Shown one piece after another: positions 2,627 through 54,523 of a DNA stretch of 64,000 bases. The notes beneath the pieces were generated by a model. The model worked only from the letters and a program-made list of their open reading frames with translations, searched no databases and was not told where the DNA came from. The stretch comes from a bacterium (GTDB lineage: Bacteria > UBA8248), in the NCBI GenBank assembly GCA_022825065.1, contig JAJDYR010000039.1:62001-126000 (forward strand), read 5' to 3'. The position numbers and the translations under genes are program-made. Within the stretch, counting starts at the first letter, position 1, and each line of letters opens with the position of its first letter.

Positions 2627-2723
2627 GCCGTCCGCGGCTGCTGAACAACCCCTCGATGGGAAGTATCGCTTTTATCCCCCTTGCGCGGGCTGTTGAAAAA
2701 GCCCCCCTCCTCAGGGGATAAAA

Positions 2724-2836
2724 GCAACCCCCCCTACCCCCCCTTGGCAGGGGGGCAAGAAGAACCAAAACCCCGCTCCACCGGTGGAGGGGTTGCCTTT
2801 TTTACCCCCCTGACAAGGGGGGGTAGGGGGGGTTGC
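2724..2836. repeat. Long inverted-repeat element, copy A
   Basis: Begins GCAACC and ends GGTTGC. The outer arms are C-rich (CCCCCCCTACCCCCCCTTG, with its complement at the far end), around a central segment containing GCAAGAAGAACCAAAACCCC. Related copies occur at 17664, 20690, 45608 and 54307. It carries no coding capacity and has the form of a MITE or REP-like hairpin element. The centre of this copy has diverged from the others. Confidence 0.85.
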
Positions 2837-3009
2837 CTTTCCCGTAGGGTGGCCGCCCGTATCGAAGGTGTCTATTTTTGTGGCTGTCCTTCGTCAGGAC
2901 AGGCACGGAGGCCACGGACAGGCGCAGGGGCCCGTCCGCTACGGTGAACAATCTCGAAGGCCGATTAACGAGGATTCGACGCGGCCGTGGAGGGGGCGGG
3001 TTTTGTAGG

Positions 3010-17318: not shown

Positions 17319-18086
17319 GAATCATTCCTCCTCGTTTTCCCGAGACGCCCCCGTGGGGGCTGTTGATTAACCCCCTGAGAGGGTAATGGCAACATCCCTG
17401 AAAGTGAAGCCCCATAAAAGCACCCCACCTACCCCCCCCTTGTCAGGGGCCAATTCCGAGCGAGGAGCGAGGAATTGCGAACTGATGTTTTTCACCAATG
17501 GCTCTTGCAAACGCTCGTTCCTCACTCGCGTTTGACCCCTGACAAGGGGCTGTTGAAAAAGGCTCCTTTCCGCTTCACCCTGAGTAGCGGCGAAGCCGCG
17601 TATCGAAGGGCTTGTCCTGAGCCTGTAGAAGGGGCGCTCCCTCGTTCTCCCTCGCCCTGAAAAGCAACCCCCCCTACCCCCCCTTGTCAGGGGGGCAAGA
17701 AAAAGCAAAACCCCCTCAGTCCGGCGGAGCGCATCGCCTCTTTATACCCCCCTGACAAGGGGGGGTAGGGGGGGTTGCCTTTCGAGGAGGGAGGTCGGGG
17801 GGTTCGCGCGAAAGCGCCGTATCGAAGGTTCGACCCGACCGAAGAGAGAGGGTCAAAAGGCGTCTCCCGGCCGGCGGAGCAATCGCTTCCGGATTGGGCG
17901 CGATTGTCCTTCGATACGCCGCCCTTCGACAAGCTCAGGACAGGCTCTTCGGCGGCTACTCAGGATGAGGAAGACGGGGGGCGGAGCCTGCCCCGAGCGA
18001 AGTCGGGGGAGCCTGTCCTGAGCCTGTCGAGGGGCCGCTACCCGGGATGAGGGAGATGCGAGGACTTTTCGGGCAGCCCCCTGTGG
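17319..18086. other. Repeat cluster between two minus-strand genes
   Basis: About 770 bp without a supported gene. It contains TGTTGATT/TGTTGAAAAAG motifs (about 17355 and 17548), the inverted-repeat element (17664-17778), and a set of CTTCGACAAGCTCAGGACAGG / GAGCCTGTCGAAGG-type repeats at about 17600-17640, 17924-17955 and 18000-18035. The mixture of at least four repeat families suggests an insertion hot spot. Confidence 0.75.
17664..17778. repeat. Long inverted-repeat element, copy B
   Basis: Same layout as the other copies: GCAACC start, C-rich arm, GCAAGAAAAAGCAAAACCCC core, CGCATCGCCT, complementary G-rich arm, GGTTGC end. The arms pair over roughly 35 bases. Confidence 0.88.
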
Positions 18087-20556: not shown

Positions 20557-20689
20557 GGGTGGCCGCGCCGGGTGGAACGAGGGTTGGGATGGAGGGAGCG
20601 CTTTATTCTGCCGAGCATCTCCGTTCCGGGGTTGTTGGAAATGCCTTTTTTCAGGAGGTAGGGGGACGCCCCTCTCGACTGGAAAACCA

Positions 20690-20830
20690 ACCCCCCCTAC
20701 CCCCCCTTAACAGGGGGGTAAAAAAGGCAATTCCCTGACAAGGGGTGATAAAAAGGCGATGCGCCCTCTCCGGACCGAGGGGGTTTTGCTCTTTCTTGCC
20801 CCCTGACAAGTGGGGGTAGGGGGGGACTTT
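20690..20830. repeat. Long inverted-repeat element, copy C (opposite orientation, longer)
   Basis: C-rich arm CCCCCCCTACCCCCCCTTAA, then a core that reads as the reverse complement of the other copies (GGCGATGCGCCC ... GGGGGTTTTGCTC), then GACAAGTGGGGGTAGGGGGGG. An extra CCCTGACAAGGGG unit makes it about 25 bp longer. Its reversed core shows that the element occurs in both directions. Confidence 0.8.
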
Positions 20831-28323: not shown

Positions 28324-28535
28324 GGCGAAACACGGCCTGCGCCTGGACGGACCGGCTTTCCGAATGGACTGATTCAACTTGCTTTCTGCTTCTTACGCGG
28401 TATATTTGAGGGTGTTTGGGGCTTTCTGTCTTCGAAATCATGATATCATATAACGGCTGATTGATTTTCCGGGGCCATGCTCTTTTTCAGGGCGCTGGCG
28501 GCTCGGCCAGAGTCTCTAAAGAACGCATTTCTAAT

Positions 28536-30464
28536 ATGGGGTTTTTCATGTTCTCTCACCTCCTTAAGAAGGCGCCGGCCTTCCTGCTGGCCTTCATGAT
28601 TCTCCTCGGTGCATCCGGCGGCTCGACCCACGCCCAGGAGAACGATTACCGCAAGGCCTTGGGCCTCATCAGCGACAAGCTGCACCAGAGATTCCCGAAT
28701 CTGCGCGGCGCGGTAGTCGCCGTCAGAGGGGCGGATCTCTACTTGAGCCTCGGCGAGAAGGATGAGGTGGTCAAGGGCGTCAAGCTGAACGTCTACCGCG
28801 AGGGCGCGCCGTTTCGCCACCCGACGACGGGCGTCGTTCTCGGCAAGCTGGAAGAGGAGATTGGCGAGATCGAAATCGTCGAGGTGCGGGAGAAATTCTC
28901 CATCGCACGTCTTGTCCGCCTCGCGCCGGGCGGGCGGCTCTCGCCGCGCGTCAAGGACACGGTGCGCATGTCCGCCTCGAAGATTCGCCTGGCGATACTG
29001 CCTTTCGTCAATCAGACGAAAGAAGCCGTCAGCATGGAGACACTCACGAGGGAACTCGGACGCCAGCTCCTGAGGAGCGGGCGCTTCGACGTGTACGACG
29101 TGGACAGGCTCCAGGTATGGCTCCTCGAAACGGGTGTCGCCACCGATGAAATTCTCAAAGGAGAGAATCCCGTCCGCCTTCGGAACCAGGTGCGGAGCGA
29201 CATGGCGCTCGAGAACGAGCTCCGCGAAATCCGGGGGAAGAAGATTCTCTCCACCCGCCTTTTGTCCCTCACCACGAAGGAAGAACTCTTCAAGGCCGTG
29301 GCCATTGCGGATGAACTGCCCTTCGAGCAGGGCCCGCCCACGGTGCAGGAACTCAAGCGGGGCGGCGGCGAGACGCGCGCAGGACCCGCGAACGAGAATT
29401 TCGTGCTCGCCCGCGAGGGCGCGCCCGGCAGGGCCGGCGGCGTCAGGAGTTATTCGTTCGATAAGGTCGCCCTCCGGGGGATGTCCGTGGCGGACGTGAA
29501 CGGGGACGGAAAAAACGAAGTCGTCCTCATCACCCAGACGCAGGTTATCGTCAACCGCTTCGACGGGAACCGGATGCGCGAGGTCGCGCGCTTCGACGAG
29601 GGGGCGGCGAACGACTTCCGCTGGCTCGACGTCGCCGACATGAACGGAGACGGCGCGCCCGAGTTCTACCTCGCCTCTTACCGCTCGAACGAGTTGTTCT
29701 CGCTGATCCTGCAGTTCAAGGGCGGGAAGTTCACCCCCCTCGTCCGGAACGACAGGACTTTTTATCGCCTCATACGGGTGCGGCGGCCCGAGAAGGGCGA
29801 GAAGATTCCCGACGCGGAAGCCTACCTGCTTCTGGGGCAGAGCGAAGGGATCGAGAGCGCTTTCGAAGGCCCCATCCGCAGCTACCGCTGGTCGGGGGGG
29901 AAACTCGCGCCCGCCGCTCCCTATGCGCTTCCGCCGGATTTGACGATACTGGGCTTCGGCTTGTGGGACCTCAACAGGGACGGCTCGCAGGAAGTCATCG
30001 AGGTGGGGAAGGACGACAGGCTGAGGGTGCTCTCGAGGAGCGGTTCGGAGGTCTACTCGAGCTCTGAAAAATACGGCGCGCCCGTCCATAGATTCTTCTC
30101 CCAGGCCGGCGCACAGCGCACCGAAGATCAGGCGGACGCGCCGGATATGCCCATACGCTCGCGCGTGCTGGTGGAAGACCTCGACCGTGACGGTGTGGAC
30201 GAGGTTCTGGTGATCAAGAACGAATACGGCGCCGCCATTGCTCCTGGTCTGGGGGTTTCGGGTGGCCAGATTGCAGGTCTGATATGGGACGGCGGCGGTT
30301 TGACCGAGACCTGGCGCACGAGGAAGTTGAGCAGCGGGGTCGTGGATTTCGCCTTCGGCGACGCGGACAACGACGGCTACGACGATCTGGTGGTGGCGGC
30401 GACGGACTCGGGATTGCTGAAGGGTGAGAAAAGCCGTCTTTTCTTCTACAGGATCAGGGAATAG
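28536..30464 (+). CDS. Exported FG-GAP/VCBS repeat protein with FlgT/CsgG-like N-terminal region
   Basis: 642 aa with a signal peptide (FLLAFMILLGASGGSTHAQ). Residues 20-140 contain an SH3-like strand region (GVKLNVYREG...TTGVVLGKLEEEIGEIEIVEV) resembling the FlgT C-domain. Residues 145-200 (IRLAILPFVNQT...LGRQLLRSGRFDVYDVDRL) resemble a CsgG/FlgT middle domain. The rest is a beta-propeller of calcium-binding FG-GAP blades: DVNGDGKNEVV, DMNGDGAPEFY, DLNRDGSQEVI, DLDRDGVDEVL, DADNDGYDDLV. The start is uncertain: weak ribosome site, with alternative ATG four codons later. It probably sits on the outer membrane or periplasmic face. The 3' end has a similar remnant at 35878-35913. Confidence 0.7.
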   Translation: MGFFMFSHLLKKAPAFLLAFMILLGASGGSTHAQENDYRKALGLISDKLHQRFPNLRGAVVAVRGADLYLSLGEKDEVVKGVKLNVYREGAPFRHPTTGVVLGKLEEEIGEIEIVEVREKFSIARLVRLAPGGRLSPRVKDTVRMSASKIRLAILPFVNQTKEAVSMETLTRELGRQLLRSGRFDVYDVDRLQVWLLETGVATDEILKGENPVRLRNQVRSDMALENELREIRGKKILSTRLLSLTTKEELFKAVAIADELPFEQGPPTVQELKRGGGETRAGPANENFVLAREGAPGRAGGVRSYSFDKVALRGMSVADVNGDGKNEVVLITQTQVIVNRFDGNRMREVARFDEGAANDFRWLDVADMNGDGAPEFYLASYRSNELFSLILQFKGGKFTPLVRNDRTFYRLIRVRRPEKGEKIPDAEAYLLLGQSEGIESAFEGPIRSYRWSGGKLAPAAPYALPPDLTILGFGLWDLNRDGSQEVIEVGKDDRLRVLSRSGSEVYSSSEKYGAPVHRFFSQAGAQRTEDQADAPDMPIRSRVLVEDLDRDGVDEVLVIKNEYGAAIAPGLGVSGGQIAGLIWDGGGLTETWRTRKLSSGVVDFAFGDADNDGYDDLVVAATDSGLLKGEKSRLFFYRIRE

Positions 30465-31244
30465 CGTTCTTTACGCCGCCGGCTCCCGGCGCGGGCAAAT
30501 GCGGGCAAATGCGGGGGCGCCGAAAACTTTTTTCACCGCCTTATCTGAGTGCGCGACGCTCATATTTATATGATAACCCTTTGTATTACAAATCGTTAAG
30601 CGGGAAACGAATTTCAGGAATTTATCGAAAAACCCCGTGAATGTATCGAATTTTATCGAAAATATCATTACTTTCATTTCCGCGCCGTTCCCGAATCCAT
30701 CCTCGCAACGCCTCCTCACGTCGCCGGCTCCCGCATGACGCCATCGCCGGAAATTCGCCCGCTTCATTTTCCTCTCCCCCCCTTCGACGGGAATGTTCGC
30801 TTCTCACGCGCGCGATTCTCGCCCGTCCCGCGAAGGACCCGGTAACCGCAATTGCGGGGAAATGCGGACCCGGCCCCGACCGGGGAGGCGGGATAAAAAC
30901 GCCCTTGAGGGGCTGTTGAAAAAGCCCGAAGATGGAGATTTTGCCGTCATTCCGGTGTCGGAGCCGACCGCTGAGGAAGGGTTCGACGGAATCCAGGCGG
31001 ACGGGAATGGAAGAAAAGCGGGAATGCGGCGATTCGGTGCGGGTGGCGGGATTCCCTGAACCCCGGGTTCTCTCATCAGCTCTGGATTCCGGCATTCGCC
31101 GGAATGACGGCAGTGGGATTCCGCCTTGCCGAAGGGAGTGTAGGGGCCGCATATATGCGGCCCGTCGTTGGAAGGCAAAAAGGCCGGGTCGCATGTATGC
31201 GACCCCTACACGGCAATTTCCCGTTTGCCGAGAAGTTTTCGTTC

Positions 31245-31299
31245 GTCATTCCGGCAATCAATCCCTCCCTCCTCGGTCGGCATTGATTGCCGGAATGAC
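31245..31299. repeat. 18-bp perfect inverted repeat
   Basis: GTCATTCCGGCAATCAAT (31245-31262) and its exact complement (31282-31299) around a 19-nt loop. Related to the widely dispersed CATTCCGG...CCGGAATG repeats; a second example is at about 31090. Confidence 0.75.
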
Positions 31300-31337
31300 G
31301 GTGAACACTCTTGATTGGGGTGCAACAACCTCTTTTG

Positions 31338-31382
31338 GGGACTTTTTCAACAACCCCCTCAAGGGACCGTTGAAAAAGCCTG
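31338..31382. repeat. Inverted pair of TGTTGAAAAAG motifs
   Basis: ACTTTTTCAACAACCCCCTC followed by AAGGGACCGTTGAAAAAG: two copies of the dispersed motif facing each other, forming a long hairpin. It shows the motif's natural paired arrangement. Confidence 0.7.
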
Positions 31383-31571
31383 TTTCGGGGTCGGCGGCAT
31401 GGAGGTTCACGCGGAGCAGGCGCGATGGTTTGTAGGGACAGGCCTCCGTGCCTGTCCTCACGAAGGACAACCACGAAAGGCAGGACAGGCGCGGAGGCCT
31501 GTCCCTGCGGGTCGGAGGACGGACAACGCGAGGAGGCCTTGTCCCCGCGTTTCGTTGCGTTCACCACGCGC

Positions 31572-31602
31572 AAAAAAAACCGGGGGGCCGAAGCCCCCCG
31601 GT
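31572..31602 (-). terminator. Terminator of porin copy 1
   Basis: Minus strand: ACCGGGGGGCTT / CGGCCCCCCGGT followed by eight T. Almost identical to the terminator of porin copy 2. Confidence 0.92.
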
Positions 31603-31644
31603 CGTCGTCCGCGTCAGGTGAGGACGCGAACGTCAATCAAGTTG

Positions 31645-32916
31645 CTAGAAGACGTGGCGCAGCGTCCAGCCGACCGCCCAGCCGTCGTCGATCTCACCCT
31701 CGTCCACGCCTCTGCCGTAGTCGCCGCGCAGGATAACGGCGCCCACCGCGCGAAGCTCGAGGTTCGAGTGGATCTTCCACTTGAAGCCGGCGTTGAGCTC
31801 GGTGCCGAACTCCTTTGCGTCCATCGTGTCCTCCGCGAGGGAAGGTTCGGCGGAATTATAAAGGGATACGCCGCCGGCCAGCGTCAGGGTCTTGCTGACC
31901 TTGAAGTCGGCCAGTCCCTCGATCACGACCGCGCCGTTCATTTTCTTCAGTTCTCTGTCTCTGATGCTGTTGCCGAGAGTCGTCCAGCGGCGCGAACTCA
32001 TGATGTGGCCGCCGACGAACCAGCCGGAGCTACCTCCCCGAGGCGTCAGGAAACTGCCGTCTTCGCCGGACTTGGTGCCGTCATTGCCGGAGAGCATGGT
32101 GAGGTTTCCGCTCAGTTTCAGTTTGCCCATGTTAGCGGAAGTCCTGAGCAGTACGGCCCAACCCGAGAGTTCGGTGCTGGCATTCAGGTCACCCTCCTGG
32201 ATGACGATAGAACCGTTCACGTTCAGGATGCCCACCTTGGTCTTGGCGTGGAGACCGAGGAAGCTGTAGTCATAGCCGTTGACTGCTGCGTCTCTGGTGT
32301 TGGCCGCCCACGGCGTGAGCGTGAGCGTCGGGTTCACCTTGATGCCCATGCCGACGTAGTAATCCGTCTTGTCATCGTTGCTGCCACCCGCGTCTTCTTT
32401 CGATTTGGTCATGAACGCGCTGAGTGACATGTTCTTGCTCAACTTGCCGTAAAGCGCAATGCCCGGCAAACGGTGCTTACCGCCGCTGTCGAAGATTTCC
32501 TTGTCCGGCGAGAAGTAGTCCGTTCGGCCCATGCGAACGCGGAGCGCGCTGCCCGGAACGGCGAAGTCGATCACCCAGCGGTTCGTACCCACATTGTGCC
32601 GACCAGCGGTGCCGAATCCGCCGTTCGCGCCAGCATGCGTATTAGTCGCTAATTCGTTATCATCGTCAAGTTTTCCAGTATACGACGACGAGAAGTCGAG
32701 TTCATATGTGGCCGTGACGGCGCCGCTCTTCATCGTGAAGCGCGGGCGGATGAGCGCGTCCAGATAATTTTTCTTGTCTCCGTCGTCACCTTCGACGTTT
32801 TCGCTGGATCCACGCACCCGGAAGAAGCCGCTGTACTTGAAGTCGGCCGCGTACGAGGGCGCGGTGAACGCCACGACGAGCGCCATCGCGAACAGAGCTA
32901 ACAGAAGTTTCCTCAT
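31645..32916 (-). CDS. Outer-membrane porin-like beta-barrel protein, copy 1
   Basis: 423 aa with a cleavable signal peptide (MRKLLLALFAMALVVAFTAPSYAA). The mature protein starts DFKYSGFFRVRG and ends WAVGWTLRHVF, a typical terminal aromatic for Bam-dependent barrels. Alternating strands run throughout (ATYELDFSSS, GSALRVRMGRTDYF, YSFLGLHAKTKVGILNVNGS). It resembles alginate- or trimeric-porin-like proteins but no substrate family can be named. By eye it is about three-quarters identical to the 410-aa copy at 36493-37725; the main differences are a 13-18-residue loop after TYELDF (SSSYTGKLDDDNELATNTHA) and in other loops. Ribosome site ATGAGGAGAAATACAC. Confidence 0.85.
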   Translation of the reverse strand: MRKLLLALFAMALVVAFTAPSYAADFKYSGFFRVRGSSENVEGDDGDKKNYLDALIRPRFTMKSGAVTATYELDFSSSYTGKLDDDNELATNTHAGANGGFGTAGRHNVGTNRWVIDFAVPGSALRVRMGRTDYFSPDKEIFDSGGKHRLPGIALYGKLSKNMSLSAFMTKSKEDAGGSNDDKTDYYVGMGIKVNPTLTLTPWAANTRDAAVNGYDYSFLGLHAKTKVGILNVNGSIVIQEGDLNASTELSGWAVLLRTSANMGKLKLSGNLTMLSGNDGTKSGEDGSFLTPRGGSSGWFVGGHIMSSRRWTTLGNSIRDRELKKMNGAVVIEGLADFKVSKTLTLAGGVSLYNSAEPSLAEDTMDAKEFGTELNAGFKWKIHSNLELRAVGAVILRGDYGRGVDEGEIDDGWAVGWTLRHVF

Positions 32917-33326
32917 GTGTATTTCTCCTCATTGAGGTTTCACAAAAAATGTTGCCGTCTTCCTTCGTGTTGTGTGTCTGGTTTATCGTGTGTTTCGGCA
33001 TCCGTGCTTCGTCGCCTGCGACAGGGCTTCCCGCTCCCGCATCACCCCCTCTCTTCCATGCCGCCCCGCACGCCGACAAGGTTCCATCTTGCGAACCGGT
33101 ATTCGCCGCTTATGCAGACAATTCCCCATCTGAAAAAACAGCCGTTCCGTGCTTTATCTCTCAAAGAATAGATGTAATACTGAAAGGAACTGATCACTCC
33201 GGGGATGTTGCGACAGAGTGTACTCATGCAATGTAAAGATTTGTTATTATTTGCTTTAATTCGATATTTCCCTTATCGTCGCCTCTTGCGCGCCTGCCGT
33301 GCTTGTGCTTGAATACGCTCACATTC

Positions 33327-33363
33327 GATGCCGCTGATATGCGTTTTGATGACATGTCGAGCG
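33327..33363 (+). repeat. Direct repeat 1 upstream of the integrases
   Basis: 37-bp unit starting GATGCCGCTGATATGCG and ending GACATGTCGAGCG, repeated 78 bp downstream with two differences. Flanking bases (AA-ACGC before the unit) also match, so the true repeat is about 50 bp. Candidate recombinase arm-type sites. Confidence 0.8.
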
Positions 33364-33366
33364 TGA

Positions 33367-33400
33367 GAGAGCGCGCCTGCTTATGCGTAAACGCGCTCTC
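33367..33400. repeat. Inverted repeat between the direct repeats
   Basis: GAGAGCGCG (33367-33375) and CGCGCTCTC (33392-33400), 16-nt loop containing TTATGCGTAA. The placement between two direct repeats resembles the layout of a recombinase core site. Confidence 0.65.
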
Positions 33401-33404
33401 GATT

Positions 33405-33441
33405 GATGCCGCCGGTATGCGTTTTGATGACATGTCGAGCG
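33405..33441 (+). repeat. Direct repeat 2 upstream of the integrases
   Basis: Second copy of the 37-bp unit (GATGCCGCCGGTATGCG ... GACATGTCGAGCG), ending 27 bp before the first integrase start. Confidence 0.8.
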
Positions 33442-33468
33442 AAGGGGCCATGCCCGGCGAGGGGGGCC

Positions 33469-34647
33469 ATGCCCAGGAGGAGTGAGTTCAGGCTCACCAA
33501 GCGCGCTGTCGATGCGCTCAAAACCGAAAACCGGGACACCCTCTTCTGGGATCGGGACCTGGCCGGCTTCGGGGTGCGCGTCCACTCCGCGGGCAGGAAA
33601 TCCTACGTGGTGCAATCCCGCGGGCCCGGGGGGATAAAACGCGTTACTCTAGGCCGGCACGGGGTGTTGTCGACCGGGGAGGCGAGGAAGCAGGCCGCCC
33701 TCGTCATCGATCGCATCAAGCGGGGCGAATACCCCGGGCTTGAGCCGCCCGCGGAGGAGCCCACCCTGGCGGCGGTTGCCGAGCGCTTCATGCGCGTCTA
33801 CGTGGAAAGGCACCTGAAGCCGCGCACCGTCGTGGAGTACCGCACCATACTGGACAAACACGTCCTGCCGGCCCTGGGTGGGATGGTGTTGGGCCGGATC
33901 GGACGGGCGGAACTCACCGCGTTTCAGCACCGCCTCCGCCATACGCCGAGCCGGGCCAACACGTCGATCCATCTCCTGTCGAGGATGTTCAACCTGGCCG
34001 AGGCGTGGGGTCTGGTCCCGCCCGGGCGGAACCCGTGCGGAAGACTGACGCTCTACAGGACGCGCCCGCGCGAGCGGTTCCTGACATCCAAGGAATACCG
34101 CCGCCTGGGCCGCGCGCTCAAAGACGCCGAGGCGGCAGGCTCCGTCTGGCCGCCTGCGATCACGGCGATCAGGCTGCTCATGCTGACCGGGTGCCGGAGG
34201 AGCGAGATACTGAGCCTCAAATGGGACGACGTGGACCGCACGGCGGGAGATCTCAGGCTCAGGGACGCCAAGACGGGCCCCCGCATGGTTCCACTGACGA
34301 ATCCCGTGCGGGGGATTCTCGAAAAGCTGCCCCGGCAACCGGACAACCCATGGGTGGTCATCGGCCAGAAGCCGGGAAAGAACCTCACGGATCTCCACTA
34401 CTACTGGCGGCCTGTCCGGGAGCGGGCGGGGCTCTCCGACCTGCGGCTCCACGACCTCAGACACTCCTATGCGTCGAGGGCTCTGGCGCTCGGCGAGAGC
34501 CTCTACACGATCGGCAAGCTCCTGGGGCACGCGACGGTAACGACGACGGCGCGCTATACGCACCTGATGCTCAAGGCGGAGAAGGAGGCGGCCACCCGGG
34601 TGGGGGGGAGCATAGGCGCCCACCTGACGAACGGGAACCTCGAGTGA
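33469..34647 (+). CDS. Tyrosine recombinase/integrase, first of tandem pair
   Basis: 392-aa integrase with an N-terminal arm-binding DUF4102-like domain (LFWDRDLAGFGVRVHSAGRKSYVVQ, 25-50), a SAM-like core-binding domain (about 98-185) and a catalytic domain. Active-site residues are all present: R243 (TGCRRSE), K268 (DAKTG), H328 and R331 (HDLRHSY), H354 (LLGHATV) and nucleophile Y363 (TTARYTH). ATG 33469 is chosen for GGCGAGGGGGG before it and family alignment; 22 extra upstream codons are not conserved. It ends in GTGA overlap with the second integrase. The two proteins align over their whole length, so they arose by tandem duplication. Confidence 0.93.
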   Translation: MPRRSEFRLTKRAVDALKTENRDTLFWDRDLAGFGVRVHSAGRKSYVVQSRGPGGIKRVTLGRHGVLSTGEARKQAALVIDRIKRGEYPGLEPPAEEPTLAAVAERFMRVYVERHLKPRTVVEYRTILDKHVLPALGGMVLGRIGRAELTAFQHRLRHTPSRANTSIHLLSRMFNLAEAWGLVPPGRNPCGRLTLYRTRPRERFLTSKEYRRLGRALKDAEAAGSVWPPAITAIRLLMLTGCRRSEILSLKWDDVDRTAGDLRLRDAKTGPRMVPLTNPVRGILEKLPRQPDNPWVVIGQKPGKNLTDLHYYWRPVRERAGLSDLRLHDLRHSYASRALALGESLYTIGKLLGHATVTTTARYTHLMLKAEKEAATRVGGSIGAHLTNGNLE

Positions 34648-35816
34648 AAACGGCGAAGCCCACCAGGAAAACGCTCTCGAACCGGGCGGTCGGGAAGCTT
34701 GTGGTTCATAAGGATACGGTATTCTGGGACCGGGACCTCACAGGCTTCGGCGTCAGGGTCTATCCGACCGGCTCAAAGGTCTACGTCGCCCAGGCGCGGG
34801 GGCCGGGAGGACCCAGGCGGGTGGCGGTGGGCCGCCACGGCGTGATCGGTGCCGAGCAGGCGCGCCAAAGGGCGGCGCTCATCATCGCCCGTATCAAGGC
34901 GGGCGAGGAAGCGATCCCGAAGCGGCTGAAGCCCGCGGGCGGGCCCAGGGTGGCGGCGCTCGCCGAGCGGTATCTCACCGAATACATATCGGTGCGCTGC
35001 AAGCCGAGCACCGTCGCGAAGACCAGGGCGGTCGTGCGGAAGCACATCGTGCCCGCTTTGGGCGAGTTGCCGATCATGGCGCTGGAGCGGGCGCAGGTGG
35101 CGGAACTGCACCAGGGCCTTTGCGAGACGCCTGCCGTTGCGAACATGGTCGTCCGGATCCTCCATGCGATGTACAGGCTGGCCGAGAGCTGGGGGCTGGC
35201 GCCCGAGGGGCGCAACCCCTGCCGCCTGATCGTGAAATACCCCGAACGCAAGAGGGAGCGGTTCCTGACGGACGAGGAGTTCACGCGCCTGGGGTCCGTT
35301 CTGGAAGAAATGGAGAGTCAGGGCGGGGCGTCTGCGTCCGCTCTGGCCGCCATACGCCTGTTGATGCTGACCGGGTGCCGGAAGTCCGAAATACTCACTC
35401 TCCGCTGGGAGGACGTGGCGCTGGACGAGGGTGAGCTGAGGCTGCCGGATTCCAAGACGGGCGCGCGGGTCGTCCCGCTTCCGCCGCAGGCGGTCGCGCT
35501 CCTGGCGGCCCTCCCCCGGGTGGAGGGGAATCCCTGGGTCATTTCCGGCAGGAAGCCGGGCGCGCGCCTGAGCAGCCTCGATCACGTCTGGCGGCCCGTC
35601 CGCGCGCGGGCGGGTCTCGGTGACGTGCGGCTCCACGACCTTCGCCATTCCTACGCTTCGAGAGCGCTCGCGCTGGGAGAAGGACTCCCCGTCATCGCGA
35701 AGCTCCTCGGCCACGCCCACGTGCAGACCACGGCGCGTTACGCGCACCTGGCGCGCAATTCCGCGCACGAGGCGGCGGAGCGGGTTGCGGGGAGTATCGC
35801 GGAAGATATATTCTGA
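34644..35816 (+). CDS. Tyrosine recombinase/integrase, second of tandem pair
   Basis: 390 aa starting at a GTG that overlaps the upstream stop (GTGA), so translation is coupled. Same domain order as its neighbour: arm-binding (VFWDRDLTGFGVRVYPTGSK), core-binding, catalytic. Complete active site R246, K271, H331, R334, H357, Y366. The frame continues far upstream as an open shadow inside the first integrase, but the family start is at the GTG. Both active sites intact implies a functional hetero- or alternate-recombinase pair rather than decay. Arm 2 of the inverted duplication starts about 410 bp downstream. Confidence 0.93.
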   Translation: MKTAKPTRKTLSNRAVGKLVVHKDTVFWDRDLTGFGVRVYPTGSKVYVAQARGPGGPRRVAVGRHGVIGAEQARQRAALIIARIKAGEEAIPKRLKPAGGPRVAALAERYLTEYISVRCKPSTVAKTRAVVRKHIVPALGELPIMALERAQVAELHQGLCETPAVANMVVRILHAMYRLAESWGLAPEGRNPCRLIVKYPERKRERFLTDEEFTRLGSVLEEMESQGGASASALAAIRLLMLTGCRKSEILTLRWEDVALDEGELRLPDSKTGARVVPLPPQAVALLAALPRVEGNPWVISGRKPGARLSSLDHVWRPVRARAGLGDVRLHDLRHSYASRALALGEGLPVIAKLLGHAHVQTTARYAHLARNSAHEAAERVAGSIAEDIF

Positions 35817-35877
35817 GAAAGTCGGTTGCCGGATTTCCGGCGATGCGCGGCGGCGGGTTCCGGCTGTTCTCCGCCGG

Positions 35878-35913
35878 GAAAAGCCACTTCTTTTTTCTAC
35901 GATCAGGGAATAA
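35878..35913 (+). pseudogene. Remnant resembling the 3' end of the FG-GAP gene
   Basis: GAAAAGCC ... TTCTAC, GATCAGGGAATA aligns with 30428-30463, the last codons and stop of the FG-GAP protein gene (KSRLFFYRIRE), with small indels. It could be a leftover from duplication or a second attachment site created when an element integrated at that 3' end. The match is short, so confidence is limited. Confidence 0.4.
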
Positions 35914-35978
35914 GATTTCTCGGACGGCCCGAATCACAGGCCGGATGAACGGATACAGGCCGGTTTTTCAGGGGGCGG

Positions 35979-36002
35979 AAGGCGTATTTTGGACGCCTTT
36001 TC
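35979..36002 (+). terminator. Terminator after the integrase pair
   Basis: AAGGCGT, 7-nt loop ATTTTGG, ACGCCTT and a short T-run. Confidence 0.65.
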
Positions 36003-36201
36003 GCCCGGTGAGCGAAAAATTTTTTCTCGGGATGCAAAGGCCTGGGCAGGGCGATAGATTTCACGTCGTTTTTTTATGGCGCGAAATTTTTCGTAAAGGC
36101 TTGATTTCAGGATTGTTAAACCTTTAGTCCCATTCCGGAAGACAGGGGAAGATTCGAATTGTGAGGAAATGATTTTTTTGGATTTCCCTTGGGATTGTTT
36201 G

Positions 36202-36230
36202 TTGACAAAGAGGATCATCTTTTCTATTCT
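36202..36230 (+). promoter_or_regulatory. Promoter of porin copy 2
   Basis: Consensus TTGACA (36202-36207), 17-bp spacer, TATTCT (36225-36230). Predicted 5' leader about 255 nt. Porin copy 1 keeps the TATTCT and following bases (TATTCTTTG) but its -35 region differs, with no TTGACA. Confidence 0.7.
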
Positions 36231-36492
36231 TTGGGAAATGGGGAATGAAATGACGGTTTTCTTCAATGGGAAAGTATTCAAGCGACAAATATCGGTTCGC
36301 TCGATAGGACCTTGTCGACGTGCGGGGCAGCATTGAGGAGAGGGGGTGATGCGAGAGCGAGAAGCCCTGTTGCAGACGACGAAGCACGGATGCAGAAACA
36401 ATTGACAAATCCAAGACATAGAACATCGACATAGAACATGTGAAGGAAGACGGCAACATTTTTTTGTGAAACCTCGATGAGGAGAAATACAC

Positions 36493-37725
36493 ATGAGGAA
36501 ACTTCTGTTAGCACTATTTGCGCTGGCGCTCGTAGTGACGTTTGTAGCGCCCTCGTACGCGGCCGACTTCAAGTACTCCGGCTTCTACCGGGTGCGTGGT
36601 TCCAGCGAAAACGTCAATGCGGACGGGGACGATGACGCAGACGACAAGAGAAATTACCTGGACGCGCTCATTCGCCCGCGCTTCACGGCGAAAAGCGGCG
36701 CCGTAACGGCCGTATACGAGCTCGACTTCGCGCCGGGCGCGAACGACGGCTTCGCAGTCGGCGCCGGTCGGCAGACCGTGGGTACGAACCGCTGGGTGCT
36801 CGATTTCGCAGTCCCGGGCAGCGCGCTCCGCATCCGCATGGGCCGGACGGACTACGTCTCGCCGGACAAGGAAATCTACGACAGCGGCGGCCGGCATCGT
36901 GAGCCGGGTATTGCCATCTACGGCAAGCTCAGCAAGAATCTCTCACTCAGCGCGTTCATGACCAGCACGAATGAAGACCCTTCCCCGGCCAATGACGACA
37001 GGAAGGATTACTACGTCGGCGTGGGCATCAAGGTGAATCCGACTCTCACGGTTACGCCGTGGGTGGCCAACTCCAGAAACGCGGCGGAAGGCGGCTATGA
37101 CTACAGCTTCCTCGGCCTCCACGCCAAGACCAAGGTGGGCATCCTGAACGTGAACGGTTCCATCGTCATCCAGGAAGGTGACCTCTCGAGCGGCGATGAG
37201 CTCTCGGGCTGGGCCGTTCTGGTGAGGACTTCCACGAGCCTCGGCAAACTGAAGCTGAGCGGCAACCTCACGATGCTCTCCGGCAACGACGGCACCAAGG
37301 CCGGCGAAGACGGCCGCTTCAGGACGCCTCAGGAAGGCGGTTCCGGTTGGTTCTTCGGCGGCCACATCATGACTTCGCGCCGCTGGACGACTCTGGGCAA
37401 CGGAATCAGAAGCGTGCACCTGGGCGCCCTGAACGGCGCGACGGTGATCGAGGGATTGGCCGACTTCAAGGTCAGCAAGACCCTGACGCTGGGCGGCGGC
37501 GTATCCCTCTACAACGCAGCCGAACCTTCCCTCGCGGCGGACACGATGGACGCGAAGGAATTCGGCACAGAGCTCAACGCCGGCTTCAAGTGGAAGATCC
37601 ACTCGAACCTCGAGCTTCGCGGTGTGGGCGCCGTTATGTTGCGCGGCGACTATGGCAGAGGCGTGGACGAGGGTGAGATCGACGACGGCTGGGCGGTCGG
37701 CTGGACGCTGCGCCACATCTTCTAG
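36493..37725 (+). CDS. Outer-membrane porin-like beta-barrel protein, copy 2
   Basis: 410 aa, signal peptide MRKLLLALFALALVVTFVAPSYAA, mature start DFKYSGFYRVRG, end WTLRHIF. Paralogue of the 423-aa protein on the other strand: long identical blocks such as LGLHAKTKVGILNVNGSIVI and FKVSKTLTL, with differences concentrated in loops (for example NADGDDDADDKRN and a shorter FAPGANDGFAVGAG loop). That pattern, constant strands and variable loops, is what surface-exposed porins show under immune, phage or ligand selection. Ribosome site ATGAGGAGAAATACAC, identical to copy 1. Strong promoter and terminator. Confidence 0.85.
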   Translation: MRKLLLALFALALVVTFVAPSYAADFKYSGFYRVRGSSENVNADGDDDADDKRNYLDALIRPRFTAKSGAVTAVYELDFAPGANDGFAVGAGRQTVGTNRWVLDFAVPGSALRIRMGRTDYVSPDKEIYDSGGRHREPGIAIYGKLSKNLSLSAFMTSTNEDPSPANDDRKDYYVGVGIKVNPTLTVTPWVANSRNAAEGGYDYSFLGLHAKTKVGILNVNGSIVIQEGDLSSGDELSGWAVLVRTSTSLGKLKLSGNLTMLSGNDGTKAGEDGRFRTPQEGGSGWFFGGHIMTSRRWTTLGNGIRSVHLGALNGATVIEGLADFKVSKTLTLGGGVSLYNAAEPSLAADTMDAKEFGTELNAGFKWKIHSNLELRGVGAVMLRGDYGRGVDEGEIDDGWAVGWTLRHIF

Positions 37726-37766
37726 CAGTATGAAGGACGCTCGCGTCCTCATCTGACGCGACGACG

Positions 37767-37797
37767 ACCGGGGGGCTTCGGCCCCCCGGTTTTTTTG
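37767..37797 (+). terminator. Terminator of porin copy 2
   Basis: ACCGGGGGGCTT / CGGCCCCCCGGT then TTTTTTT. Confidence 0.93.
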
Positions 37798-38109
37798 TGC
37801 GTGGAGAATGCAACGAAACGCGGGAACAGAGCCTCCTCGCGTTGTCCGTCCTCCGACCCGTAGGGGACAGGCCTCCGTGCCTGTCCTGTTGGAGGCCTTC
37901 GTTCCGATGAAGACGAAGGACAACCACGGAGGGCAGGACGACCCATAAGGGTCGTCCCTGTGGGCTCATGCCCGGAATGAAAAGGCCCCCCACGGGTGAT
38001 CCGTGAAGGGCCTTGAAATACATGCCCGCCTACGGGCGTAGCGGATAACGGCGAAAAATCTACATGTGCAAGTATGGAGCGTCAATAGCGGAGGTATCGC
38101 CCCGTTTAT
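37798..38109. other. Gap with GGGACAGGC repeats
   Basis: Repeat family at 37861-37945 (GGGGACAGGCCTCCGTGCCT, then GGAGGCC and GTTGTCC inversions) plus the terminator of the DUF1640 gene. No gene. Confidence 0.6.
37978..38015 (-). terminator. Terminator of the DUF1640 gene
   Basis: Minus strand: AAGGCCC ... CACGGATCACCCGTG ... GGGGCCTT then TTC. A two-tier stem about 95 bp after the stop. Confidence 0.6.
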
Positions 38110-38433
38110 TTACGGGAGCAGCTTGACGAGGGAGACGGTCGCCCCGATGACCGCCAGGGAGGTGGTCAACACCATGCGGTACATGCTCGCGCGCAACTCG
38201 GCGATGTCGGCCTTGAGTTCGGCGCGCAGTTCGCCCATGTCGGCCTTGAATTCGGCGCGCAGTTCGCCCATGTCCGCCTTGAGTTCGGCGCGCAGTTCGC
38301 TCATGTCGGCCTTCGTGGCCACGTTGTCCGAGACGGCGTCTCTCACCGTGGCCACGACGGCTTCCGCCTGGGTTTCCTCGAACCCCGACGCCTTGAGCAG
38401 TTTCGTCGCCTTGAGCGTGTCGAACGCGGGCAT
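38110..38433 (-). CDS. Small DUF1640/CCDC90-like coiled-coil membrane protein
   Basis: 107 aa. N-terminal region MPAFDTLKATKLLKASGFEE...AEAVVATVRDAV matches the DUF1640 head. The middle is four near-identical 11-residue repeats (KADMGELRAEL) forming a coiled coil. The C-terminus is a single membrane anchor (MVLTTSLAVIGATVSLVKLL). ATG 38433 is preferred for GGAGGAACGGCGG before it. The family includes mitochondrial MCUR1; bacterial members are of unknown role and frequently sit near phage or mobile genes. The protein repeat reflects a 33-bp DNA tandem repeat. Confidence 0.82.
   Translation of the reverse strand: MPAFDTLKATKLLKASGFEETQAEAVVATVRDAVSDNVATKADMSELRAELKADMGELRAEFKADMGELRAELKADIAELRASMYRMVLTTSLAVIGATVSLVKLLP
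38188..38316. repeat. 33-bp tandem repeat inside the coiled-coil gene
   Basis: About four units of GGCGCGCAGTTCGCCCATG plus 14 more bases, encoding the 11-residue repeats. In-frame expansion or contraction would change coiled-coil length without a frameshift. Confidence 0.85.
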
Positions 38434-38655
38434 CCGCCGTTCCTCCGGTTCAGAGCGATCCATTATCGGCCGGGCGTCCCGCGCGCGCAAGGGAGCACGA
38501 CGGCGCTCGTCCGTCCTCTCCGCGCGGAGCACATATGCGTAGGTAACCCCGCTTTTCAGACGATATCGCTTGAGGGGTTTGGCGGGGGATGGTATATCCT
38601 TTGGGCGTAGCCGCATGTTCGTCCGCAACGACTCACTTCAGGGAAAGAGCGAAAA

Positions 38656-45311: not shown

Positions 45312-45782
45312 AATGAGTTGGCGATCATCCGGCTTGTGCGCGGGCAACGGGCTGCGCGCGGATGATTCCGTTGGCGGGGAGCAACTCGGCGCGGGGGTCC
45401 GGGGAATTCAAGAGGGCCTCCTGATTCGCGTCTAAAGAGGGTTGTTGAAAAAGTCCTGTCCGACCATCGAGATTGTTCGCCGTAGGGACAGGCCTCCGTG
45501 CCTGTCCTGCTCTTCGTGGTTATCCCTGGTCAGGACTGGCACGGTGGCCTGTCCCTACGGGGCGGTGCCTCCCCGGTCGGTTCGATTGCCCCCTCATTTG
45601 TTGAAAGGCAACCCCCCCTACCCCCCCTTGTCAGGGGGGCAAGAAAAAGCAAAACCCCCTCAGCCCGGCGGGGGCGAATCGCCTTTTTATACCCCCCTGA
45701 CAAGGGGGGGTAGGGGGGGTTGCCTTTGTCCCCTGACAAGAGGGGCTTTATCAGCCCCTAAAGGCGGGGTGTTCGCCAAACC
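45312..45782. other. Gap holding two repeat families
   Basis: GGGACAGGC family at 45483-45565, a TTGTTGAAAAAG motif at about 45440 and the long inverted-repeat copy D (45608-45723). No gene. Confidence 0.7.
45608..45723. repeat. Long inverted-repeat element, copy D
   Basis: Nearly identical to copy E at 54307 (core AAAACCCCCTCAGCCCGGCG), indicating recent spread or gene conversion. Confidence 0.9.
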
Positions 45783-54221: not shown

Positions 54222-54523
54222 TGCGCGCAAGCCCGCCCGGTTTGGGTTTGTTGAAAAGCCTTTCTAAAAGGAGCAATCCCCCTTACCCCCTTGCCAGGGG
54301 ATAAAGGCACCCCCCCCTACCCCCCCTTGTCAGGGGGGCAAGAAAAAGCAAAACCCCCTCAGCCCGGCGGGGGCGCATCGCCTTTTTATACCCCCCTGAC
54401 AAGGGGGGGTAGGGGGGGGGTGCTTTTGTAGCGGACAGGCTCCTGCGCCTGTCCGAGGTCGCGACCTGTCCCTGCGGACCCCCCTCCCCGGTCGGTTTCG
54501 TCCGCCGAATCACGGAATCGGGG
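54222..54523. other. Repeat-filled gap
   Basis: Long inverted-repeat copy E (54307-54423), GGACAGGCTCCTGCGCCTGT repeat (54428-54478) and a TTGTTGAAAAG motif (54248-54258). No gene. Confidence 0.7.
54307..54423. repeat. Long inverted-repeat element, copy E
   Basis: Same layout as copy D, with GCAC / GTGC termini instead of GCAACC / GGTTGC. Confidence 0.9.

Follow-up and report, generated by a model that had tools for sequence, protein, structure and literature searches.

Two inverted porin units, an integrase pair and a probable insertion at an FG-GAP gene end in a bacterium of the lineage UBA8248

We analyzed a stretch of 64,000 nucleotides (hereafter the window) from a bacterium of the lineage UBA8248 (GenBank assembly GCA_022825065.1, contig JAJDYR010000039.1, positions 62,001 to 126,000, forward strand), in which two porin genes of opposite orientation enclose two overlapping tyrosine recombinase genes, int1 and int2 (Table 1). 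The porin beside the aminotransferase gene is called porin B and its place the resident slot, or slot B; the inverted second porin is porin A in slot A. The inverted arms of the initial annotation are real, since pairwise alignment yielded 81.4% identity over 1,729 columns. The longest exact runs common to both arms measure 63, 52, 44 and 37 nt, the last of which includes the terminator hairpin; such a hairpin is present in each unit and both reading frames are intact. Both recombinases also proved complete, each matching Arm-DNA-bind_3, Phage_int_SAM_3 and Phage_integrase and with the R...HxxR...Y residues visible. Of the direct-repeat array described between the arms, the repeats were found, but they amount to two 64-nt copies in the region upstream of int1 and not to an array.

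Table 1. Features of the porin locus, in positions of the window.
Feature	Position	Strand	Basis or remark
FG-GAP/LpoB-like gene; 3′ end is the putative insertion target	28461..30464	+	Open reading frame (ORF); FG-GAP_3 and LpoB matches
Left flanking direct repeat, putative attL, last FG-GAP codons	30438..30463	+	Repeat search
Left part of the putative insertion, with dispersed repeats and, at 30645-30717, a remnant of a left-facing integrase module (its upstream end)	30464..31480	.	Similarity to G003
Arm A: -10 box, leader, porin A, terminator, trailing repeat	31481..33172	-	Alignment to arm B
Porin A (slot A), 423 aa	31645..32916	-	Intact ORF; ratio of nonsynonymous to synonymous divergence (dN/dS) 0.34 vs porin B
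Porin A -10 box region; homology to B stops here	33161..33172	-	No -35 box at 16-18 nt
Two 64-nt direct repeats (33300-33363 and 33378-33441), 83% identity	33300..33441	+	Upstream of int1
int1, tyrosine recombinase with arm-binding domain, start ATG	33469..34647	+	Domain search, query from 33451
int2, tyrosine recombinase with arm-binding domain, start GTG	34644..35816	+	4-nt overlap with int1; conserved module stops near stop codon
Putative attR, repeat of FG-GAP 3′ end	35817..35912	+	57/81 positions shared with the FG-GAP 3′ end of the window
Porin B promoter TTGACA-17-TATTCT	36202..36230	+	Consensus scan
Arm B	36223..37888	+	Alignment to arm A
Porin B (resident slot), 410 aa	36493..37725	+	Intact ORF
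Porin B terminator hairpin	37766..37791	+	Mirror copy for porin A at 31578-31603 (-)

The two slots differ in their promoters. A TTGACA-17-TATTCT promoter precedes the leader in all eight slot-B units, and that of porin B scored 10/12 in a consensus scan, while none was found using the -10 box of porin A. In both slot-A units (those of the window and of the related genome G003), similarity to slot B starts at TCTATTCTTTG; upstream of this point, both continue into int1-region sequence that contains no -35 box. The sole porin-type -35 box, which the initial annotation had missed, lies between the arms, next to porin B and 15 nt from the arm boundary. The three 8-mers of the -10 region that were tried precede int1 in the window and G003 copies alone, and in none of 20 other integrase copies and one int2 fragment, which assigns the -10 box to the porin rather than to an element end. 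Slot A is probably silent or weakly expressed.

An empty version of the site is found in four genomes of the same genus (G001, G002, G004, and G005), where the FG-GAP gene is followed by approximately 0.55-0.6 kb of intergenic sequence, a single porin and then the gene for the aminotransferase. The window has approximately 5.4 kb, comprising porin A, int1 and int2, between the end of the FG-GAP gene at 30464 and the resumed intergenic sequence, whose homology begins again at 35923-36085, varying with the relative. Directly after int2 stands a second copy of the FG-GAP 3′ end, and none of 1,000 base shuffles matched as well as this copy. The equivalent repeat of G003 shares 53/69 positions with the FG-GAP 3′ end of G001 (again 0/1,000 shuffles as good) and is in frame to the stop codon in G003. 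It is also recognizable on contig L079 (26/30 to the FG-GAP 3′ end of G002). Altogether, 14 of the 15 comparisons made for the window, G003 and L079 beat all 1,000 shuffles, and the score of the remaining one, L079 with G004, was reached by three. The FG-GAP 3′ end on both sides and an empty site in relatives are what integration at a 3′ end leaves, and such an integration is what the arrangement of the window appears to represent. L079 is labeled Chloroflexi, but we suspect that this label is wrong, given that its genes have kept this order, at 87-96% protein identity. FG-GAP dN/dS values were left out of the range for neighboring genes, as the comparisons with G004 and G002 were implausible (dN above 2, taken as codon-register artefacts) and that with G001 covered only 95 codons. 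An assembly artefact is unlikely, because the same order occurs independently in G003 and identity between the arms is no more than 81%.

To the left of porin A, positions 30645-30923 match G003 with 93.6% identity over 280 columns. G003 itself has the start of a further int1 on the far side of its slot-A porin; this gene is truncated by the end of the contig and directed away from the porin. Together with the module remnant in the left part of the window's insertion, this suggests that slot A may have travelled as cargo between two integrase modules.

The integrase pair itself is dispersed. The window's own genome (G000) contains four intact pairs (C4, C2, C3, and C27) besides fragments, with a porin at the window pair only, and close int2 relatives occur in all seven genomes of the genus. 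Among the matches listed, the similarity of copies at unrelated sites stops close to the end of int2, between approximately 50 bp upstream and 35 bp downstream of it; in one subfamily, its upstream limit is mostly 200-227 bp before int1, with a few pairs sharing more. To judge from these boundaries, the pair behaves as a module; we take it for a mobile one and not for a dedicated invertase. The latter was rejected because the integrases are of the integrative-element type and the pair is dispersed; the model for tyrosine-type DNA invertases, NF007371, gave only approximately 20 bits (cut-off 222). Synonymous divergence (dS) of int2 from the window towards G003, G006 and L079 was 0.13-0.15 vs 0.20-0.41 for neighboring genes, which is consistent with later movement of the pair between lineages. 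The int1 values for G006 and L079 were dropped: the contig end truncates int1 in both, so that the match was to int2. In G002, 31 int2 matches were counted in one genome, broken and distant copies included, and the pair seems to have expanded there.

Several further repeats were observed. A palindromic repeat of approximately 100-150 bp, resembling a miniature inverted-repeat transposable element, has five copies in the window (2720-2842, 17656-17783, 20667-20825, 45603-45722, 54308-54418) and also occurs near several integrase pairs on other contigs. Repeats of the CCTTGAGGGG..TTGTTGAAAAAG type and a palindrome, GGGACAGGCCTCCGTGCCTGTCCT, represent other dispersed families, which are concentrated where the porin arms trail off (30896-31380, 31432-31508, 37864-37964). 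Two contigs of the same genome (L017:41-2542 and L019:41-2515) begin with 92%-identical genes, presumably a conjugative relaxase/helicase by their appearance, a few kb from an integrase pair; these repeats may be the cause of the contig ends. Beyond arm B, the reverse-strand ORF 38110-38628, a coiled-coil protein with a CCDC90-like match, contains 33-nt direct repeats in three in-register copies (38189-38313).

Leader and mature porin gene have incompatible histories. When the slot-A units of the window and of G003 (A_G000 and A_G003) were compared in windows of 100 columns, identity was 79-96% in the leader and the start of the signal peptide, 33-79% in the body and 79-87% at the terminator. 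In the leader tree (287 columns), grouping A_G000 with A_G003 was best and grouping A_G000 with B_G000 was rejected (approximately unbiased (AU) test, p 0.004); these data are also compatible with grouping A_G003 with B_G003 (AU p 0.057). In the body tree (1,345 columns), grouping A_G000 with A_G003 was rejected (AU p 2e-5), and A_G000 with B_G000 was compatible (p 0.45), without being the best tree. Thus, the A leaders group and the A bodies do not. Resident porins point in the same direction. G001 and G002 each carry a single resident porin body that is only about 50% identical, next to four neighboring genes at 92-97% protein identity. Its dS to G001 and G002 is 0.86-0.87 vs 0.16-0.40 for the neighboring genes; towards G001, a porin dS of 0.86 at 49% identity contrasts with 0.16-0.23 for the aminotransferase, SerA, HisZ and PurA. 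Rather than fast amino-acid change alone, the raised dS indicates that a diverged allele replaced the porin. Further, the sequence past the B_G000 terminator is of the slot-A type (83% to slot A of G003 over 161 columns), whereas the other seven B units, inspected by eye, have none there, so that the two slots probably exchanged sequence at least once. Overall, porin bodies appear to have been exchanged within conserved frames of leader and terminator. This supports one part of the initial annotation, an exchangeable cassette or gene conversion, through both the tree conflict and the resident-body swap in G001 and G002; the other part, that the cassette is invertible, found no direct evidence, with one orientation in four of four occupied loci.

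Porin A is an intact gene and, as estimated from substitution rates, slightly less constrained than slot B: dN/dS was 0.33-0.38 for A_G000 against B units and 0.21-0.29 for class-1 slot-B pairs. The highest value of 14 pairs, 0.75, belonged to the resident porins of G006 and G001 (L082:2367-3674, L086:9098-10456), a hint of diversifying selection. A porin of 83-84% identity on G004:C188 was also returned by both porin searches.

Known families and structures gave few hints by sequence. Porin A had no match in a Pfam search and porin B two, both below the cut-off; DESULF_POR1 (NCBIfam NF033939) scored 48.8 bits for both porins against a curated cut-off of 250 bits, which excludes membership; and among solved structures a single match (E 0.19) covered only the first 25 positions. 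Porin B was modeled with AlphaFold2 from 17 aligned sequences (mean predicted local distance difference test score 75, predicted template modeling (TM) score 0.74); the model has 18 predicted strands, with long loops alternating with short turns. Its nearest solved folds in Foldseek were AlgE first, then the major outer membrane protein (MOMP) of Campylobacter jejuni (rank 16, TM 0.65 by query) and OccK channels, with TM values by query of 0.57-0.68. Counting gaps, porins A and B differ at 41/144 long-loop positions (28%), 31/219 strand positions (14%) and 0/24 short-turn positions, an excess in loops over strands with an odds ratio of 2.4 (p = 0.0012); porin A also has an insertion of 18 residues in loop 2. 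The claim that the arms differ most in their loops thus holds for this pair; over the seven porin pairs compared, the loop excess is significant in four and not in the other three (p 0.069, 0.22, and 0.4). In hypervariable major porins, surface loops vary and bodies are exchanged beneath conserved flanks. Both traits are common to the porins of the window, which differ from these proteins in having approximately 9-17% sequence identity to the solved structures in the Foldseek list.

We consider it fairly likely that these observations reflect an integrative insertion at the FG-GAP 3′ end beside a hypervariable porin locus, combined with a promoter-truncated second slot and swapping of porin bodies. 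The insertion, the target repeat, the absent slot-A -35 box and the conflict between leader and body histories are features read from the sequence. In the proposed course of events, slot B would be a resident hypervariable outer-membrane porin locus, and the 3′ end of the FG-GAP gene before it would be the site at which a two-integrase mobile element inserted. The integrases would account for the insertion, which would carry the inverted second porin, separated from the porin -35 box. Porin bodies in both slots would be replaced by homologous recombination via the conserved leader/signal-peptide and terminator segments, resulting in surface variation. Slot A may serve as a donor or reserve, and the selection behind it may be surface escape from phage or host.

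Several points weigh against this explanation. The FG-GAP repeat of the window is imperfect (57/81) and was not recognizable in G006. Other integrase pairs had no clear flanking gene repeat: when 22 integrase copies with a left flank (444 bp to 14.5 kb, window included; three further copies were too short) and one int2 fragment were searched, a gene-end repeat was found in the window only, and the 20/20 flanking match at G005C206 has letters resembling a dispersed repeat. Joined-flank queries for the pairs C3 and C27 gave no clean empty site; the flanking genes of C3 are both present in G001, G002 and G005, always on different contigs, and those of C27 only in G004, on two contigs. Finally, slot A is intact, with the dN/dS given above, and it may be expressed, as a 9-of-12 promoter-like match lies on the A strand inside int1 (33673-33646); six matches of this quality were found in the stretch scanned, with 2.2 expected by chance.

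Alternatively, porin A could simply be a horizontally acquired or duplicated paralogue carried as cargo, a second expressed or slowly decaying porin without any special role of slot A. Its dS to porin B (0.33) is within the 0.26-0.45 computed between species for class-1 B pairs, several other genomes of the family, e.g., G010, G011 and G012, have more than one porin locus, and slot A of G003 lies between an integrase pair and the outward-facing int1 start at the contig end, as cargo might. The promoter-like match inside int1 would suit such a static duplication, too. Nevertheless, the leader/body conflict between G000 and G003 requires that the slot-A body was replaced at least once, and the -35 box is missing in both slot-A units; we therefore regard a static duplication as unlikely. 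A third explanation is a single-promoter inversion switch, in which recombination between the arms, either RecA-type in the leaders or of the site-specific kind with int1/int2, inverts the 3.05-kb middle segment and moves promoter activity from B to A. The -35 box between the arms makes a switch by homologous recombination conceivable: the genes face outward, the box lies inside the segment, a matching -10 box, leader and ribosome-binding region are present on both sides, exact runs of 30-63 nt are available for recombination, and the layout is like that of Campylobacter fetus sap and Lactobacillus acidophilus slp. However, the integrase pair is directed towards porin B and the aminotransferase gene in each of the four occupied loci, of which G000 and G003 have both slots visible and G006 and L079 are partly covered (int2 and slot B only). 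Four alike would be expected in 1 in 8 cases under free 1:1 switching, and this is weak evidence against inversion. By eye, no obvious inner half-site is shared past the arm boundary that could make a recombinase core, and the integrase pair is found at many places, without a porin elsewhere in its own genome. Hence, the switch appears quite improbable to us. We are equally doubtful that 33173-36222, with int1, int2 and the sole porin -35 box of the locus, is an invertible promoter cassette with its own recombinases, whose flipping via the inverted arms would switch transcription between two antigenically different porins with bodies also refilled from other strains; a sap-type switch for a porin, assembled via insertion of a mobile integrase pair, is likewise a faint prospect.

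The sapA system of Campylobacter fetus and the slpA/slpB system of Lactobacillus acidophilus consist of inverted surface-protein genes with one promoter and act as single-promoter inversion switches. As in these, the window has two related, outward-facing surface genes with conserved 5′ ends, the sole complete promoter inside the enclosed segment and a second copy without a full promoter. It differs from them in that the protein is a beta-barrel porin, that a single orientation was seen in four of four loci and that the middle segment carries two integrases of a dispersed mobile element. Integrative elements of the P4/island type use a gene's 3′ end as their insertion site, and a repeat of that end is found on the far side. 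The window resembles them in its Arm-DNA-bind_3 integrases, the 3′-end insertion with a repeat and the empty site in relatives, but it has two overlapping integrases instead of one, and a porin is the only other clear gene. For slp, the switching of slpB is described in PMC7858073.

The window shares with RIT, GInt and SE elements a dispersed unit in which several tyrosine recombinase genes adjoin or overlap. RIT elements have three overlapping recombinases (PMC3414803), GInt elements have three integrases plus the small helix-loop-helix gene ginD (ginABCD; PMC5385486), and SE elements have the order intA-tfp-intB together with srap (PMC10214605). None of the three fits: the window has two recombinases, flanked by porins A and B, and not three as in RIT; two integrases, and not three with ginD as in GInt; and, unlike SE, int1 and int2 overlap by 4 nt with no gene between them (srap was not searched for). 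A literature search limited to one library showed, among the papers listed, no porin inversion system of this layout and no relevant paper on two-integrase units.

New to report are the absence of the -35 box in slot A, as opposed to the promoters in eight of eight slot-B units, and the conflicting histories of leader and body. With this locus, a little-known lineage gains a concrete place at which surface variation can be followed, with one fixed slot for expression, another that lacks the usual full promoter, and porin bodies exchanged beneath conserved leaders. If inversion were true, it would extend single-promoter switches from S-layers to a porin, and it would show that a mobile integrase pair is able to seed such a switch.

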